This document shows, piece after piece, positions 5,440 to 22,301 of a stretch of 43,461 nt of DNA. The stretch comes from a virus, in IMG/VR virus record IMGVR_UViG_3300048925_000693, positions 1 through 43,461 of that record. The stretch is one strand, 5' to 3'. The notes under the pieces are model-generated. The model worked only from the letters and a program-made list of their open reading frames with translations. It was not told where the DNA came from and made no database searches. The translations under genes were made by a program, and so were the position numbers. Every line of letters starts with the position of its first letter. Position 1 is the stretch's first letter.

Positions 5440-6090
5440 TCAGGCGGGTTGGGTAAGGCCGTAAAACTCGCAGATGGCAGCGTCGACGGCTGCGAGGTCA
5501 TTGGGGATGTGCATGCCGTCAAACATGCTCGGGGGAGATTTGCAGCAGTCTTGCCCGTTGCTTTGGGTCGCAAAGACGTGCTGCCCGTTGATCTGCTCGG
5601 CGCGCAAAACGATGGTGAAATAGCCCTCGGGGACCAGCTTCTCGTCCACCATCTTCCCGACCGTCTTCATCCGGACGTTTCCGTGGTCGTCGGTCTGGGT
5701 GTGTGCCATGATGTAGACGCGCTTCTGTTCCGGTAGATCGCCTGCCGCTTGGAAAATGCTCCAGGCCCCATGGCCGATGTCTGCGAACTTCTGGAAGCCG
5801 GTCTCAGTGCTGCGGCGCATAAGTTCGTTGGTCAGAACAGCTTGGTAGTCGTCCACGATCACCACATCCCGATCCGTCTTGCGCATCGCCTTTTCAATCA
5901 GAATGCTGTCGTCGGTGACGAACCGTGCGCCGCTGGTGTTCTCCTTGGTTCGGAGTGTCCAGTCAGCAGACTTGAAAGGAAGGGGCTTCTTGATCGGTTG
6001 GATCAGTGTGACCTGGGAAGGGTCGAAGTTGCGCAGGCTGTACGACTTCCCGCTCCCTGACGGTCCTAAGACCATAACGGCGATGCTCAT
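5440..6090 (-). CDS. AAA/RecA-fold phage ATPase (Sak4-like)
   Basis: A 216-residue P-loop ATPase. Walker A GPSGSGKS is at residues 9-16 and Walker B VVIVDD at 76-81, followed by a histidine-bearing switch strand (VYIMAHTQTDD). This is the AAA_24 architecture that includes Sak4-like recombination mediators. The start at 6090 is firm because Walker A begins nine residues in and AGGAG lies 7 nt upstream. With the DUF669-like and Gp157 genes it forms a probable homologous-recombination module. A general NTPase role in replication is the alternative. Confidence 0.8.
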   Translation of the reverse strand: MSIAVMVLGPSGSGKSYSLRNFDPSQVTLIQPIKKPLPFKSADWTLRTKENTSGARFVTDDSILIEKAMRKTDRDVVIVDDYQAVLTNELMRRSTETGFQKFADIGHGAWSIFQAAGDLPEQKRVYIMAHTQTDDHGNVRMKTVGKMVDEKLVPEGYFTIVLRAEQINGQHVFATQSNGQDCCKSPPSMFDGMHIPNDLAAVDAAICEFYGLTQPA

Positions 6091-10114: not shown

Positions 10115-10176
10115 GCTTTTTTGTAACAGTGAGGCGCGATACCATTCCGCATGGCTTCGTCACTAAGGGGCAGGCA

Positions 10177-12101: not shown

Positions 12102-13106
12102 TCAGTACCGTGCCCATTGTCCCGATTCGTCATCTCGAAGTCGGGCGCCAGCCCACACAACCTGACCAAGAACACGGGCAGGGTGCCCATTCTCCAGCGG
12201 GATATCCGGGTAGGCCGGGTTGAACGAACGAGCAACCCACCGCCCCGTAAGCTTGTCCTTGGCCACGGTCTTCACGATCATCTTGCCGTCATAGTTGATG
12301 GCGTAGATGCCGCCGGCAGCCAGATCGCGCAAGGTCCGGTTCTCGTTCGGGACAACGAGCAGCGCCGCTCCATCACGGATGACGGGTTCCATGCTGTCGC
12401 CTTTCGCATACACCACCACCCCTTTACCCGCGTCCGCACCCACGGACCGCAGGAACGACCTACGGAACTGGATGACGCCGGTTTGATCCTCAGCGTGATT
12501 CTCAATGCCGTCGCCGGCTGCCAGGCGGACATCTGCCAGTTCAGGTACAGGCTCGAAGCTGTCGTTGGCAGCAGCACGCGCACCCGTGGTCACGTTGGCA
12601 GAGACCAGAATCTTGCCGGAGCCCGCTGCTGGATGGTCGAGCACCTCCCGCATCGGGAATGCGTCATCAGCCGCGTGAGTATCCACCACTGAGCCACGGG
12701 CCGAACTGGTGGGCTTTTGTGCAGTTGTCGCCGCTACCTTAATCCCGATCTTCAGCTGCGCTATTGCCAGTGCCAGCGCTCCTTGCAGGGCGTTCAGCTG
12801 GGCTGGGGGCAGGGCGCGCACCTCTTGCTCTGGGATTTCAGGAAAGGGCCAGGGCGCAGGTGAGGGCGGGTTTGATGTTTCTGTGGCGCCGTCGGCGTCA
12901 AACCATCCCTTCATGCCGGGCATCGTCTCAATGGCCCAGATGGTTTTCTCAGTTACGGGCCGAATGCCAGAAATCATCTGGCGAACAAAAGCACCGTCCT
13001 TGTAGCCAAGCCGGCGTCCAAAGTCGGTTTTGTTCCCTTGCGATACGTGGTCCACGGCAGCCGCGAGGCGCGCAATCCGGAACTCGTTTAGTTCAACCTC
13101 ATTCAT
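12102..13106 (-). CDS. cI: CI-type repressor with S24 peptidase domain
   Basis: A 334-residue repressor. Residues 1-65 carry an HTH region (GNKTDFGRRLGYKDGAFVRQ is the recognition segment). A proline-rich linker and helices follow. The C-terminal S24 domain contains catalytic S238 (GDSMEP) and K279 (MIVK). Ala197-Gly198 (LAAGDG) lies about 40 residues before the serine, the right distance for the RecA-stimulated self-cleavage site, so induction by DNA damage is predicted. The ATG at 13106 is preferred over the upstream frame because the operators lie between 13107 and 13174. No ribosome site precedes it, suggesting a leaderless mRNA as in lambda PRM. Confidence 0.85.
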   Translation of the reverse strand: MNEVELNEFRIARLAAAVDHVSQGNKTDFGRRLGYKDGAFVRQMISGIRPVTEKTIWAIETMPGMKGWFDADGATETSNPPSPAPWPFPEIPEQEVRALPPAQLNALQGALALAIAQLKIGIKVAATTAQKPTSSARGSVVDTHAADDAFPMREVLDHPAAGSGKILVSANVTTGARAAANDSFEPVPELADVRLAAGDGIENHAEDQTGVIQFRRSFLRSVGADAGKGVVVYAKGDSMEPVIRDGAALLVVPNENRTLRDLAAGGIYAINYDGKMIVKTVAKDKLTGRWVARSFNPAYPDIPLENGHPARVLGQVVWAGARLRDDESGQWARY

Positions 13107-13113
13107 GCGCGGA

Positions 13114-13119
13114 AAAGTA
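13114..13119 (-). promoter_or_regulatory. Putative CI maintenance promoter -10 (PRM)
   Basis: The minus strand reads TACTTT, placing the start of transcription at about the CI start codon (13106). No good -35 lies 16-18 bp upstream, consistent with a promoter that needs activation by CI bound at the adjacent operators. Tentative. Confidence 0.4.
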
Positions 13120-13168
13120 GCATGTGCTACGGGTGCATTTGCTACTTGCGAAACGTAGCAAACGCTAC
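13117..13168. promoter_or_regulatory. Repressor operators OR1-OR3
   Basis: Three 14-bp operators: GTAGCATGTGCTAC (13117-13130), the imperfect GGTGCATTTGCTAC (13132-13145) and GTAGCAAACGCTAC (13155-13168). They lie between the divergent CI and Cro-like genes and share the consensus GTAGC-N4-GCTAC with the two PL operators. Confidence 0.75.
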
Positions 13169-13174
13169 TAGTAT
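13146..13174 (+). promoter_or_regulatory. Putative rightward early promoter PR
   Basis: -35 TTGCGA (13146-13151), a 17-bp spacer, -10 TAGTAT (13169-13174). The operator at 13155-13168 sits wholly inside the spacer. The predicted start of transcription (about 13181) coincides with the ATG of the Cro-like gene, so the mRNA is probably leaderless. An alternative -10, TACTAG at 13166-13171, has a poorer -35. Confidence 0.6.
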
Positions 13175-13180
13175 GTGCAA

Positions 13181-13447
13181 ATGGACCTGAACTCATACCT
13201 GTCTTCCCCTGGCGCCCTGACTGTGGCGCAACTCCGTGCGCGCATGGTTGAGCTTGGCTACGACGTCAAGAACGACGCGCAAATACGGCAGTGGCGCACT
13301 CGGTACAAGGACCGGCTCCCGTCTCCCGAAAACTGTGTTGGCTTGGAACTGGCCACGGCGGGCGCTATCCGCCGTCAAGACCAACGGCCGGATGACTTCT
13401 CGCGCATCTGGCCTGAGCTGGCAGGTGAAGAGGCGAGGGCGGCATGA
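13181..13447 (+). CDS. cro: YdaS/Cro-like HTH repressor
   Basis: An 88-residue DNA-binding protein. It shows the YdaS/Cro-like pattern: LxSPGALTVAQLR at the start, the recognition-helix area KNDAQIRQW (about 29-40), then ATAGAIRRQDQRPDDFSRIWPEL, typical of the family in beta- and gamma-proteobacterial prophages. It is the first gene from PR and faces CI across the operators, so it should act as the lytic-phase repressor. The ATG at 13181 is chosen over the GTG at 13175; no Shine-Dalgarno is present, in line with a leaderless mRNA. Confidence 0.8.
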   Translation: MDLNSYLSSPGALTVAQLRARMVELGYDVKNDAQIRQWRTRYKDRLPSPENCVGLELATAGAIRRQDQRPDDFSRIWPELAGEEARAA

Positions 13448-18409: not shown

Positions 18410-18612
18410 TGGACGATCTGCGCAAGTGGGAATTCCGCGACCCCATGCAGGTGCTGATGAGCCGTCAGCAGGCCGCTCTGAAACGATCGTGCGAGGGCTG
18501 CGCGCATGCCAAGACCATCGAGACGCCATTCATCGGCGACACAATCACGCGCTGCCTGAAGGGCAAGCCCTATGGGAAGAAGTGCAGCCGGTACGAGGTG
18601 GCCAATGGATAG
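18409..18612 (+). CDS. Small zinc-finger-like protein
   Basis: A 67-residue protein with four cysteines (CEGC at about 30-33, then C at about 50 and 60) spaced like a compact zinc-binding fold. The start overlaps the resolvase stop (ATG sharing one base), and its 3' end overlaps the next gene by 8 bp. It is common in replication operons of beta-proteobacterial prophages; its role is unknown. Confidence 0.6.
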   Translation: MDDLRKWEFRDPMQVLMSRQQAALKRSCEGCAHAKTIETPFIGDTITRCLKGKPYGKKCSRYEVANG

Positions 18613-18997
18613 CAGTCTGCCGCGGTGGGTGGAGGACGAGATCCACAACTGGGCACGCTCGCAATGGGAGGGGGAGTGGCCGGGGCCTGGCCGGCCGGTG
18701 TATGACGAGCCGGCCGTTTGCGCTTTCCCCGCAGAGCCTGGACACGAGGATGACGACGAGCCGGTACGAATCCCGGTGAACCATGACCGCGCGCGCAAGG
18801 TGAACCGCCTGTATGAGGCGCTGCCTCTGGCGGAGCAGCGCGTGATCCAGGCCGAGTACACGCGCCGCAACGAGTATGGCGACTTGCCCGCGCACCTTCG
18901 CCAGGACAAGGCGTGTCGTGTGATCGGGATTCCGCTGCCGTACTACAAGGTGGCGCTGGGAAGTTTCAAGCAGCAGGTGTGGAGGATGTTCGAATGA
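18605..18997 (+). CDS. Q-like late regulator (tentative)
   Basis: A 130-residue protein. The N-terminal third is aromatic and proline-rich. The C-terminal half (about 65-130) is a helical domain with LYEALPLAEQRVIQAEY and an HTH-like RQDKACRVIGIPLPYYKVALGSF segment, close to the DNA-binding end of phage antitermination Q-type and DUF1133-like proteins. Its position at the end of the replication operon, before terminase, is the usual place for the late-gene activator. The intrinsic terminators in the late region make an antiterminator plausible. The Q assignment rests on position and pattern only. Confidence 0.5.
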   Translation: MDSSLPRWVEDEIHNWARSQWEGEWPGPGRPVYDEPAVCAFPAEPGHEDDDEPVRIPVNHDRARKVNRLYEALPLAEQRVIQAEYTRRNEYGDLPAHLRQDKACRVIGIPLPYYKVALGSFKQQVWRMFE

Positions 18998-19287
18998 AGT
19001 ACGCACACGAAGTTATCGACCTGCTTGGCGCTTTTCCAGGACGTCGGTTCAAGATGCGACAGATCATCAACCACGTGGCGCCTAGAGCTGATCAGCGCCA
19101 GCGCGCCGTGGTGCGTACCGGCGTATGGCGCGTTCTGGTCGCGCTGGAGGAATCCGGGCAGATAGCCAGCACCCGCGACGAGGTGGAAAGCCGCGTGCAT
19201 GTGGAGTACTGGTGGGAAACCATAACATCGACTTCTGGAAAAGCATTTCAGAAACCATCACAATACGTGCGGGAAATCACGTCCTGA
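18994..19287 (+). CDS. Hypothetical winged-helix-like protein
   Basis: A 97-residue protein coupled to the preceding gene by ATGA (18994-18997). Residues 10-70 resemble a winged HTH (RRFKMRQIINHVAPR, then RAVVRTGVWRVLVALEESGQIAS, then an RVHVEYWWET wing). It is the last rightward gene before the inverted putAbiC gene and could regulate late expression. No family assigned. Confidence 0.6.
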   Translation: MKYAHEVIDLLGAFPGRRFKMRQIINHVAPRADQRQRAVVRTGVWRVLVALEESGQIASTRDEVESRVHVEYWWETITSTSGKAFQKPSQYVREITS

Positions 19288-19312
19288 ATACGGCTAACCG
19301 AGACTTCGGCTA

Positions 19313-20242
19313 TCAGGCTGGGCCGGAAGTTTCTGCTATCGGCTTCACTTCACCGGACTCGAGGAGTGCAGATCTAGCGAGGTTGGAGTCGAAGCTCGCT
19401 TCCTCAAAAGGGTGAAGTCCTAAGCTGTAAGCGAGGATCACCCGGTTGTGCCCGGAGAGAGGCAGATTGTCCAGCAGCGCATATCGTTGGACATAGGCGT
19501 TGAATTTCTTCCCGTCATGAAGGAATCCGTTGAAGTAGATTACTCTCAGTTCCGGGCCCGACAGTCGAGCACGAATAATAGAGACGGCGTCCCACTTTTC
19601 CACCCAGCTCACGTTAGGGTGTGAATCCACCCATCTAAGCAGTGAATAGAGAGTTCTAATCAGTGCGCCTAGTTGCGGCTCATTAGAGACGAAGCAACGC
19701 TCCCACCACGCGACCGTAGAGCTTCTATGCGTGGCGCGAATCTCCTCCTGCTCCGTTGCGTCGACTGATTGCATCTTCGTAATCAGAGAATGGGTCTCTT
19801 CATTGCTTGGAGCACGGCCCAATCGCAGAATTTCATGTAGCGCAATGACCCCAGTGAGACGGGGGTCAAGCTCTGTGCCGCTCCCAAATTGAAGCCCTGA
19901 TATCAATTCTCGGTAGCTGCTAGTCCAACCAAAGAAGGACTGTTCGAAGGCTTGCTTAGCAAGCTGTCTGCGTTGCTCTTCTAGTTCATCTTGCTGAGAC
20001 CGCAAGGTGAGTACGAGCAGGACAATGGTCACGAGCCCGGTCACTGGGTTGACGATTCCACCAAGAAAGTCGCCGAACGTGCCCCAATCTCCCGTCTCAG
20101 AGGAGATTGGACGGTCGAAAAAATTGGCGATGTAGGCCCCCACTGCGATCATGGCGACAATTGCGGGCCATGCGGCAAAGTAGACGATCAATCGACGAGT
20201 TTTCGCGGCTCGCGACTTCTGTCTCTCAGTATTCGTGTTCAT
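19313..20242 (-). CDS. putAbiC-type abortive-infection protein
   Basis: A 309-residue protein read against the late operon. A basic N-terminus is followed by TM1 (about 18-40), a GTFGDFLGGIVNPVTG motif (54-69) that runs into TM2 (to about 80), and a coiled coil (about 82-100). The rest is a cytoplasmic helical domain with FFGW and C-terminal NGFLHDGKKF/YALLDNLPLSG segments. The G-x-FGD..GGxxNPxxG motif before TM2 is typical of the putative phage abortive-infection family (PF16872). The start at 20242 follows a self-contained promoter and excludes a 36-residue upstream frame. Lower GC than its neighbours by eye suggests an added cargo gene. Confidence 0.8.
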   Translation of the reverse strand: MNTNTERQKSRAAKTRRLIVYFAAWPAIVAMIAVGAYIANFFDRPISSETGDWGTFGDFLGGIVNPVTGLVTIVLLVLTLRSQQDELEEQRRQLAKQAFEQSFFGWTSSYRELISGLQFGSGTELDPRLTGVIALHEILRLGRAPSNEETHSLITKMQSVDATEQEEIRATHRSSTVAWWERCFVSNEPQLGALIRTLYSLLRWVDSHPNVSWVEKWDAVSIIRARLSGPELRVIYFNGFLHDGKKFNAYVQRYALLDNLPLSGHNRVILAYSLGLHPFEEASFDSNLARSALLESGEVKPIAETSGPA

Positions 20243-20272
20243 TGTGATTGTGGTAGTCCGTAACGTTGAGGG

Positions 20273-20301
20273 AATATATTGAAAATGGCGCTGACAGACA
20301 A
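20273..20301 (-). promoter_or_regulatory. Promoter of the putAbiC gene
   Basis: The minus strand shows -35 TTGTCT (20296-20301), a 17-bp spacer and -10 TATATT (20273-20278). The start would be about 20266, some 24 nt before the ATG at 20242. The -35 lies within the first codons of the terminase small-subunit gene. It allows expression in the lysogen independent of late control. Confidence 0.6.
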
Positions 20302-20851
20302 ACAGCGCCGCTTCGTGGATGAGTACCTCGTTGACCTCAACGCCACGCAAGCGGCGATAAGGGCGGGGTATAGCCAGAAGACTGCCTCATCCCAGGGCGA
20401 ACGCCTGTTGAGGAATGTTGAGGTTTCCAAGGCCGTCCAAGATTCGCAGGCGAAACGGTCGAGCCGAGTACAGGTGGACGCCGATTACGTTCTGCGCCGC
20501 CTGGTAGAGATCGACCAGATGGACGTCCTGGACATCATGCGCGAAGACATGTCGCTCAAGCCGGTGTCTGAGTGGCCCCTGGTGTGGCGCCGGTATCTGT
20601 CCGGCTTTGACCTCGGCGAGATGTTCGAGGGCCGCGGCGAAGAGCGGGAAATGATCGGCATCTTGAAGAAGATCAAGTGGCCGGACAAGGTGAAGAACCT
20701 TGAGCTGCTTGGGCGCCATGTGGGCGTAAGGGCGTTCCGCGATCAGGTGGAACACATGGGCAAGAACGGCGGGCCGATGGAATTTGCCACTCTGTCCAAA
20801 GAGGAATACCGCCAGGCCCGCCGCGAGATGCTGGCGAATGACGACTGCTGA
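20285..20851 (+). CDS. terS: Terminase small subunit
   Basis: A 188-residue terminase small subunit (Terminase_2-like). The N-terminus (LTDKQRRFVDEYLVDLNATQAAIRAGYS, about 3-30) is the characteristic HTH region, followed by a SSQGERLLRNVEV segment and a helical oligomerisation region. It binds the phage packaging site and regulates the large subunit. The start at 20285 is chosen because the only upstream codon is a TTG; no convincing ribosome site is visible. Its 3' end overlaps terL by 14 bp. Confidence 0.85.
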   Translation: MALTDKQRRFVDEYLVDLNATQAAIRAGYSQKTASSQGERLLRNVEVSKAVQDSQAKRSSRVQVDADYVLRRLVEIDQMDVLDIMREDMSLKPVSEWPLVWRRYLSGFDLGEMFEGRGEEREMIGILKKIKWPDKVKNLELLGRHVGVRAFRDQVEHMGKNGGPMEFATLSKEEYRQARREMLANDDC

Positions 20852-22301
20852 CCAGCGTGACTATGCCCGACGCCTAGAGTGCGAGGATGACGGGCTGTAC
20901 TTCGCCCGGTACTTCTTCAAGCAGCGAATGGGCAACAAGATGATCGTCGCCCCGCACCACAAAGTTATCCAGGACACTCTGGACCGGGTGGTAAGCGGTG
21001 AGATTACGCGGCTGATCATCAATATCCCGCCCGGGTACACCAAGACAGAGCTAGCGACGATCAACCTGATAGGTCGCGGCCTGGCGCTGAACAACCGCGC
21101 CCGGTTCATGCATCTGTCGTACTCGCACAACTTGGCGCTGCTGAACTCCAGCACGGCACGCGGGGTCATCAAGTCGCAGGCCTATCAGGCAATGTGGCCG
21201 ATGGCGCTGAAGGACGACGCTGACAGTAAGGCCATGTGGTGGACTGAGCATGGCGGCGGCGTGTACGCCTCGTCGGCTGCCGGCCAGGTGACGGGCTTTC
21301 GGGCTGGCCACATGGAACCGGGCTGGCAGGGCGCGCTGATCATTGACGACCCGGTCAAGCCCGATGACGCATATAGCGACACAGTGCGGGGCGGCATCAA
21401 TGACCGCTTCAACGAGACGATCAAGTCCCGCTTGGCGATCGAGACGACGCCAATGATCGTAATCATGCAGCGCATCCACTATCAGGATCTCAGCGGATAC
21501 TTGCTGCGGGGTGGTTCAGGCGAAATGTGGCACCACCTGAACCTTCCGGTGATCATTGACAACAGCGATCCGTACCCGAGCGAGAACACGCACGGTATAC
21601 CGATCGCGCACGGCCTGCCTGACGGATGGCTGTGGCCATACAAGCACAACGAAACCCACCGGACGGCGCTCTTTGCCCACCGACGTACGGCCGAAGCGCA
21701 GTACATGCAGCGGCCGCGCCGGTTCAATGCCGAGGGCGCTCTGTGGACTGAGGCGTTGATCGCCGCGGCGCACGCGATCCAGATTCGGCATGACCGAAAT
21801 CGCACGGTGGTGGCAATCGACCCGCAGGCAACGAACAGCGACGAGAGCGACGAAACCGGCATTGTGGTTGCCAGCTCCTACGGCGCAGGTGACGCGAAGC
21901 AGTACTCGGTCGACGGCGACTACAGCGGCAAGTTCTCCCCTAACGGCTGGGCAACCAAAGCAATGGGCGCCTACGACCAGCACCGCGCCGACGCCATCGT
22001 CATAGAGACGAACCAGGGCGGCGACATGGCCGAAGAGACTTTGCGCAATGCGGGTTTCAAAGGTCGCATCGTTCGCGTGCATGCCAGCAAAGGCAAGTAC
22101 GCCCGGGCCGAGCCCATATCAGCGCTGTACGAGCAGGGAAGGGTCGCCCATCAAGGCAGCCTCTACCTGCTTGAGAACCAACTTATGGAATACGTCCCAG
22201 CCACGGCGAAGAAATCGCCCGACCGGCTGGACGCAATGGTCTACGCACTCACAGAGCTCGGTGGCGCCAAGCCCATCGGCATGCTTCTCCCAGGACGGTA
22301 A
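20838..22301 (+). CDS. terL: Terminase large subunit
   Basis: A 487-residue packaging motor. The ATPase domain has P-loop PPGYTKTE (64-71, a variant Walker A), a SYSHNLA segment (95-101) and Walker B ALIIDDP (166-172). The nuclease domain begins near residue 323 with VVAIDPQ, D328 being the first catalytic acidic residue, and continues with EDETGI-type and ADAIVIETNQGG motifs. It cuts concatemeric DNA and pumps it into proheads. The start at 20838 overlaps the terS 3' end. Confidence 0.9.
   Translation: MTTADQRDYARRLECEDDGLYFARYFFKQRMGNKMIVAPHHKVIQDTLDRVVSGEITRLIINIPPGYTKTELATINLIGRGLALNNRARFMHLSYSHNLALLNSSTARGVIKSQAYQAMWPMALKDDADSKAMWWTEHGGGVYASSAAGQVTGFRAGHMEPGWQGALIIDDPVKPDDAYSDTVRGGINDRFNETIKSRLAIETTPMIVIMQRIHYQDLSGYLLRGGSGEMWHHLNLPVIIDNSDPYPSENTHGIPIAHGLPDGWLWPYKHNETHRTALFAHRRTAEAQYMQRPRRFNAEGALWTEALIAAAHAIQIRHDRNRTVVAIDPQATNSDESDETGIVVASSYGAGDAKQYSVDGDYSGKFSPNGWATKAMGAYDQHRADAIVIETNQGGDMAEETLRNAGFKGRIVRVHASKGKYARAEPISALYEQGRVAHQGSLYLLENQLMEYVPATAKKSPDRLDAMVYALTELGGAKPIGMLLPGR

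Follow-up and report, generated by a model that had tools for sequence, protein, structure and literature searches.

An antisense putAbiC cassette at the terS start of a temperate phage, with a candidate promoter shared with the first terS codons

Introduction

How can a gene that lies antisense at the very start of a terminase gene be expressed, and does it belong there? The question is raised by a virus record of 43,461 bases in IMG/VR, analysed over its whole length (the window), in which an earlier note, made from the sequence, had described a putAbiC-type gene with its own promoter reading against terminase. The reading that we prefer, with a probability of about 0.68 for the account as a whole, is a swappable antisense putAbiC cassette with a composite promoter and a 101-bp homology arm, which would defend the lysogen and be turned down by late antisense transcription. 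The earlier note was right about family, promoter and antisense position; it had missed the exchange hotspot and the 101-bp block with its scraps at other loci.

Results

The putAbiC gene and its neighbours

The genes on which the analysis draws are as follows.

19313..20242, minus strand: putAbiC-type gene, 309 aa, ATG start, two predicted transmembrane (TM) segments and a helical C-terminal domain
18997..19287, plus strand: conserved 96-aa gene, left flank of the cassette (phrog_20616)
20285..20851, plus strand: terS, terminase small subunit (Terminase_2, PF03592, 1e-37; phrog_51); alternative start TTG at 20279
20841..22301, plus strand: terL, terminase large subunit (PF17289, 2.3e-15; phrog_38)
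12105..13196, minus strand: CI-like repressor (phrog_4, 6.5e-28)
5443..6090, minus strand: Sak4-like single-strand annealing protein (phrog_2872, 1.3e-80), a candidate recombinase for block exchange

The putAbiC gene reads against terminase, as had been claimed. It is antisense among plus-strand genes, with 18572-19287 on one side and terS and terL on the other, and it stands head-to-head with terS. The phage is temperate, since it carries a gene for a CI-like repressor, and its relatives indicate that the host is most likely Achromobacter or a related member of the Alcaligenaceae. The window holds no tRNA, and Rfam gave no structured-RNA match at the putAbiC/terS junction.

Alignment of the protein to PF16872 (putAbiC), which the earlier note had suggested as a check, gave 41.6 bits against a gathering cut-off of 22 and placed the protein in the family. 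The match covered residues 187-262, in the C-terminal part (profile positions 2-77 of 80), and a second match, to phrog_8999, was full-length (2.9e-26). Hydropathy peaks at residues 18-36 and 60-80 (19-residue windows) agreed with AF2 helices at 3-41 and 52-115, which are followed by an all-helical C-terminal domain (mean pLDDT 79.9, input of 8 sequences), and the description of a two-TM protein was borne out. The motif said to precede the second TM segment, GTFGDFLGGIVNPVTG, was located at residues 54-69, running into the second hydrophobic segment. By eye, no clear Shine-Dalgarno sequence was seen ahead of the putAbiC ATG.

PADLOC gave no match to the window protein up to E 10, NCBIfam gave it no name, and tblastn found no relatives in isolated phages. 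There were no credible sequence relatives with known structure, and a Foldseek search with the AF2 model returned a best E of 0.19. A fold-based function was considered and rejected, with VIA-align Z scores of at most 5.8 lying at the noise level for helical bundles. PF16872, by accession or name, and AbiP together with AbiC were not found in the literature search.

Cargo at the terS start differs among phages with the same backbone

Comparison with related phages defined one further feature.

about 19276..20284, minus strand: exchangeable cassette of ~1 kb that differs among phages with the same backbone

DNA similarity between the window and four loci (L011, L015, L017 and L027) was 87-90% on the left side and ended at 19274/19275. 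It restarted at 20285 in L011, L015 and L017 and at 20260 in L027, where the promoter region is similar to the window's. To the right of the cassette, identity to the window was 92-96% in all four; in L017 similarity broke after the terS block and returned at 20746. At the cassette site L011 carries an MtlR-like gene, L015 a HIRAN-domain gene, L017 a 99-aa ORF with no assignment and L027 a different putAbiC. Because these same-backbone phages hold other cargo there, putAbiC is an interchangeable accessory gene, and different accessory genes occupy a site that keeps its two conserved phage genes as flanks, as at a hotspot.

At other terS starts, L012 and L036 carry DUF4145 genes with a weak PADLOC match to PD-T7-4, the cargo of L010, L024 and L026 is unassigned, and no antisense gene starting at terS was recognised in L014, L019, L020, L021 and L023. 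Matches to defence families among the cargo, all of them weak, comprise putAbiC, the PD-T7-4-like DUF4145 genes and AbiP/AbiC; the last came from L013 and L027, which matched PADLOC AbiP and AbiC at 1e-3 to 4e-7 over the C-terminal region.

A plus-strand ORF was also observed in the cassettes of L011 (~870-1370 nt upstream of terS) and L017 (~590-1090 nt). The two ORFs have similar start regions, DPFEEASWGALR and SPFDEDKWGALR, and are possibly a second exchangeable gene.

A 101-bp block at the terS start is common to unrelated phages

The right edge of the cassette abuts a short block of conserved sequence.

20285..20385, plus strand: 101-bp near-identical block at the terS start, common to phages otherwise unrelated around it

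Identity within the block was 94-100% with sharp edges, and fell to about 0.30 upstream, which is chance level, and about 0.47 downstream; the block is thus a short conserved joint of unrelated modules, as boundary sequences are. L021 matched the window at 100% over exactly the 101-bp block, its single match in 14.5 kb. Since the search patterns that retrieved the loci lie inside the block, its identity is partly due to this selection; nucleotides 69-101, which lie outside both fetch patterns, still averaged 95%. Retention of the same codon at comparable positions was 0.88-1.00 in the block, compared with 0.54-0.69 for the dnaB genes of those pairs; for L012, the weakest of them, p was 0.045. 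Block identity and codon retention would fit recent exchange, and would also fit constraint at the DNA level, such as a packaging site. With regard to exchange, passages of PMC5928155 describe Sak4 of phage HK620 annealing oligonucleotides up to 20% diverged.

A separate stretch of ~48 bp near the 3' end of terS (20659-20713) showed 94% identity to terS of Aeromonas and Erwinia phages, and is a possible second exchange point.

The candidate promoter combines cassette and terS sequence

The two hexamers of the candidate promoter fall on either side of the cassette edge.

20301-20296, minus strand: -35 hexamer TTGTCT, covering terS codons 4-6
20278-20273, minus strand: -10 hexamer TATATT, just upstream of the terS ATG

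The spacer between them on the minus strand is 17 nt, which agrees with the promoter in the earlier note and its -35 inside the first terS codons. By motif scan alone the promoter was weak, with 9/12 matches and 2 sites in 1.8 kb against 0.6 expected from shuffling. We then scored loci for a -10-like hexamer (at least 4/6 matches to TATAAT) at a spacing of exactly 17 nt to TTGTCT in terS. Such a hexamer was present in 10/10 putAbiC cassettes at the block, in 2/8 other cassettes and in 0/29 terS copies with no recognised cassette; two of the six non-putAbiC cassettes that lacked it had a good hexamer at 15 nt. Fisher's test gave 1.6e-9, a value that overstates the association, as the rows are related by descent and terS patterns were used to retrieve part of the loci. 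Comparison among loci is nevertheless far stronger support for the predicted promoter than the motif scan, and the cassette appears to supply the -10 while the -35 is borrowed from terS codons.

In L010, L011, L012, L022, L025, L027 and L036, which carry unrelated cargo, a GTTACAAA-like element follows the cassette -10 by a few bases, about where transcription would be expected to begin; L010 has no -10 at the usual place. The element was considered as a repressor operator and rejected: the window has no GTTAC/GTAAC palindrome, and TTTGTAAC occurs in it once only, at 10120.

Scraps of terS are retained upstream of putAbiC

In four loci (L100, L101, L105 and, in Achromobacter, L086) only ~30-45 bp of the antisense terS start remains upstream of putAbiC, and in each of them 0/2000 shuffles reached the observed match. 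The -35 hexamers of the scraps are TTGTCT, TTGTCT, TTGTCG and TTGCCT and the -10 hexamers TATATT, TATATT, TACATT and TACATT, with the spacing kept. The phage contigs L100, L101 and L105 have, by eye, a different TerS-like ORF farther off. Scrap loci and loci with an intact block are mixed in the protein tree, an interspersion suggesting repeated loss or replacement of terS with the promoter retained. The scraps give independent support, and are the best evidence, that the terS -35 would be a working promoter part and not an accident of codons.

Alternative explanations

The minus-strand promoter might still be a codon coincidence, with TATATT belonging to terS as part of a plus-strand promoter or a ribosome-binding region. 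Owing to codon use, most terS copies contain TTGTCT, cassette or not, and AATATATT is identical when read on either strand; the weak motif scan points the same way. We consider this highly improbable, given that the -10 spacing separates all the putAbiC cassettes from the controls and that both hexamers persist in scrap loci where intact terS is absent. A less easily dismissed explanation is that the block was kept as a packaging element, either pac- or cos-like or a TerS binding site at the sequence for the DNA-binding N-terminus of TerS, and that cassettes merely adjoin it. The block corresponds to the conserved N-terminal region of TerS and its first base is that of the terS ATG, there is weaker DNA similarity across its span in Pseudomonas, Erwinia and Hafnia phages, and passages of PMC9122126 place the P2 and P4 defence hotspots next to cos. 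However, a packaging element leaves the fixed -10 spacing unexplained, and L100, L101 and L105 have other TerS-like genes yet retain the promoter end of the block alone. We regard it as a real possibility that falls short of even odds, and one compatible with the promoter part of our preferred reading.

A further alternative concerns function. The putAbiC protein may here be some other membrane protein, of lysogenic conversion or phage regulation, and have no part in defence. The family name itself says 'putative', the Foldseek search was uninformative and most of the other cargo at the terS site is unassigned. Set against this are the AbiP/AbiC matches of the relatives L013 and L027, the weak PD-T7-4 match of the DUF4145 cargo, and a distant relative encoded on a Cupriavidus plasmid in the vicinity of a HEPN-domain gene and a DUF3375/DUF4194/SbcC-like gene set. 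On balance a role outside defence seems rather unlikely.

Proposed working of the locus and relation to known systems

Under the preferred reading, a moron cassette lies antisense between the conserved 96-aa gene and terS of a temperate phage, and its composite promoter would take the -10 from the cassette and the -35 from the opposite strand of the first terS codons. The 101-bp terS start would act as a homology arm for swapping cassettes or whole packaging modules, probably through the phage's Sak4-like annealing recombinase, and every such swap would re-create a functional promoter. In the lysogen putAbiC would be transcribed from the composite promoter. Its product is probably a membrane-anchored abortive-infection protein that guards the lysogen; with the helical domain facing the cytoplasm, it would sense an infecting phage by some cue and then arrest the cell. 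Upon induction, late plus-strand transcripts that extend into terS would cross the cassette in antisense, and its output could fall as a result.

More generally, the first terS codons could be a portable socket that combines the TerS N-terminus, a recombination arm and an antisense -35, such that a cassette with a suitably spaced -10 would gain a promoter on insertion and a terS scrap would be kept when the packaging module is replaced. We would give this extension even odds.

PF16872 and phrog_8999 are the closest known relatives of the window protein, which shares the C-terminal domain of the former above the gathering score and matches the latter over its full length. The family is a named one for which our searches found no characterisation; the window's branch of it is tied to terS starts. 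The likeness to lactococcal AbiC and AbiP comes through the C-terminal matches of L013 and L027, whereas the window protein itself has no match, and the relation is one of sequence.

The locus also resembles the P2 and P4 hotspots, which Rousset et al. (2022, PMC9122126) describe as likewise small, high-turnover loci, flanked by two conserved phage genes and carrying cargo of a defence type. It differs from them in lying antisense at the terS start, in its 101-bp coding block that carries the cassette -35, and in cargo whose function is putative. The noncontiguous tha/ith operon of S. aureus prophages likewise includes an antisense gene, driven by a promoter of its own, in an opposite-strand run, and in phage 80alpha antisense transcription contributes to tha-1 shut-off upon induction, as stated in portions of PMC11087260. 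The window has this layout as judged by sequence, with an antisense putAbiC and a promoter recognised by comparison; unlike at tha/ith, the genes are unrelated and no inhibitor gene was recognised at the locus, and the regulation is proposed by analogy. Boundary sequences at mosaic phage joints, mentioned in part of PMC3029335, are likewise short conserved joints of unrelated modules; the window's block, in contrast, opens an essential gene and would also serve as half of an antisense promoter. The locus thus combines features of a prophage defence hotspot and of a mosaic boundary sequence, both known, and what sets it apart is that one essential coding sequence would provide the homology as well as half a promoter. 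The literature searched, in which subscription journals were thinly covered, contained no report of a hotspot at terS starts, and an earlier description is possible.

The account is a testable one of how accessory genes could be traded at one fixed site and yet still be expressed. An antisense terS start with a -10 at 17 nt offers a handle for finding new candidate defence genes in prophages of Alcaligenaceae, and the locus allows a simple test of whether late antisense transcription disarms the prophage's own defence on induction.

Distribution of putAbiC loci

The same putAbiC/terS arrangement was found in Achromobacter prophages: PF16872 was present in 7/43 Achromobacter genomes, of which four have it at the block and a fifth beside a scrap. 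When viral contigs were searched by profile, independently of terS, 16 loci were recovered, of which 6 had an intact block, 3 had scraps and 7 lay elsewhere; close to half of putAbiC relatives in viruses thus lie away from the terS start, for example beside an integrase-like ORF.

Among 268 genomes of the wider family there were 5 more holders of PF16872. One of their loci (L111:1390-2831) has a putAbiC 28% identical to the window's, head-to-head with a TerS-like ORF that resembles the alternative TerS of L105 and is unrelated to the window terS; this ORF is followed by a TerL that shares 85% identity with the window's in the portion covered. This arrangement means that the terS-side position recurs without the 101-bp block. 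In another virus contig (L096:363-2659) putAbiC lies directly downstream of an integrase-like ORF, and this is perhaps a second favoured position of the family.
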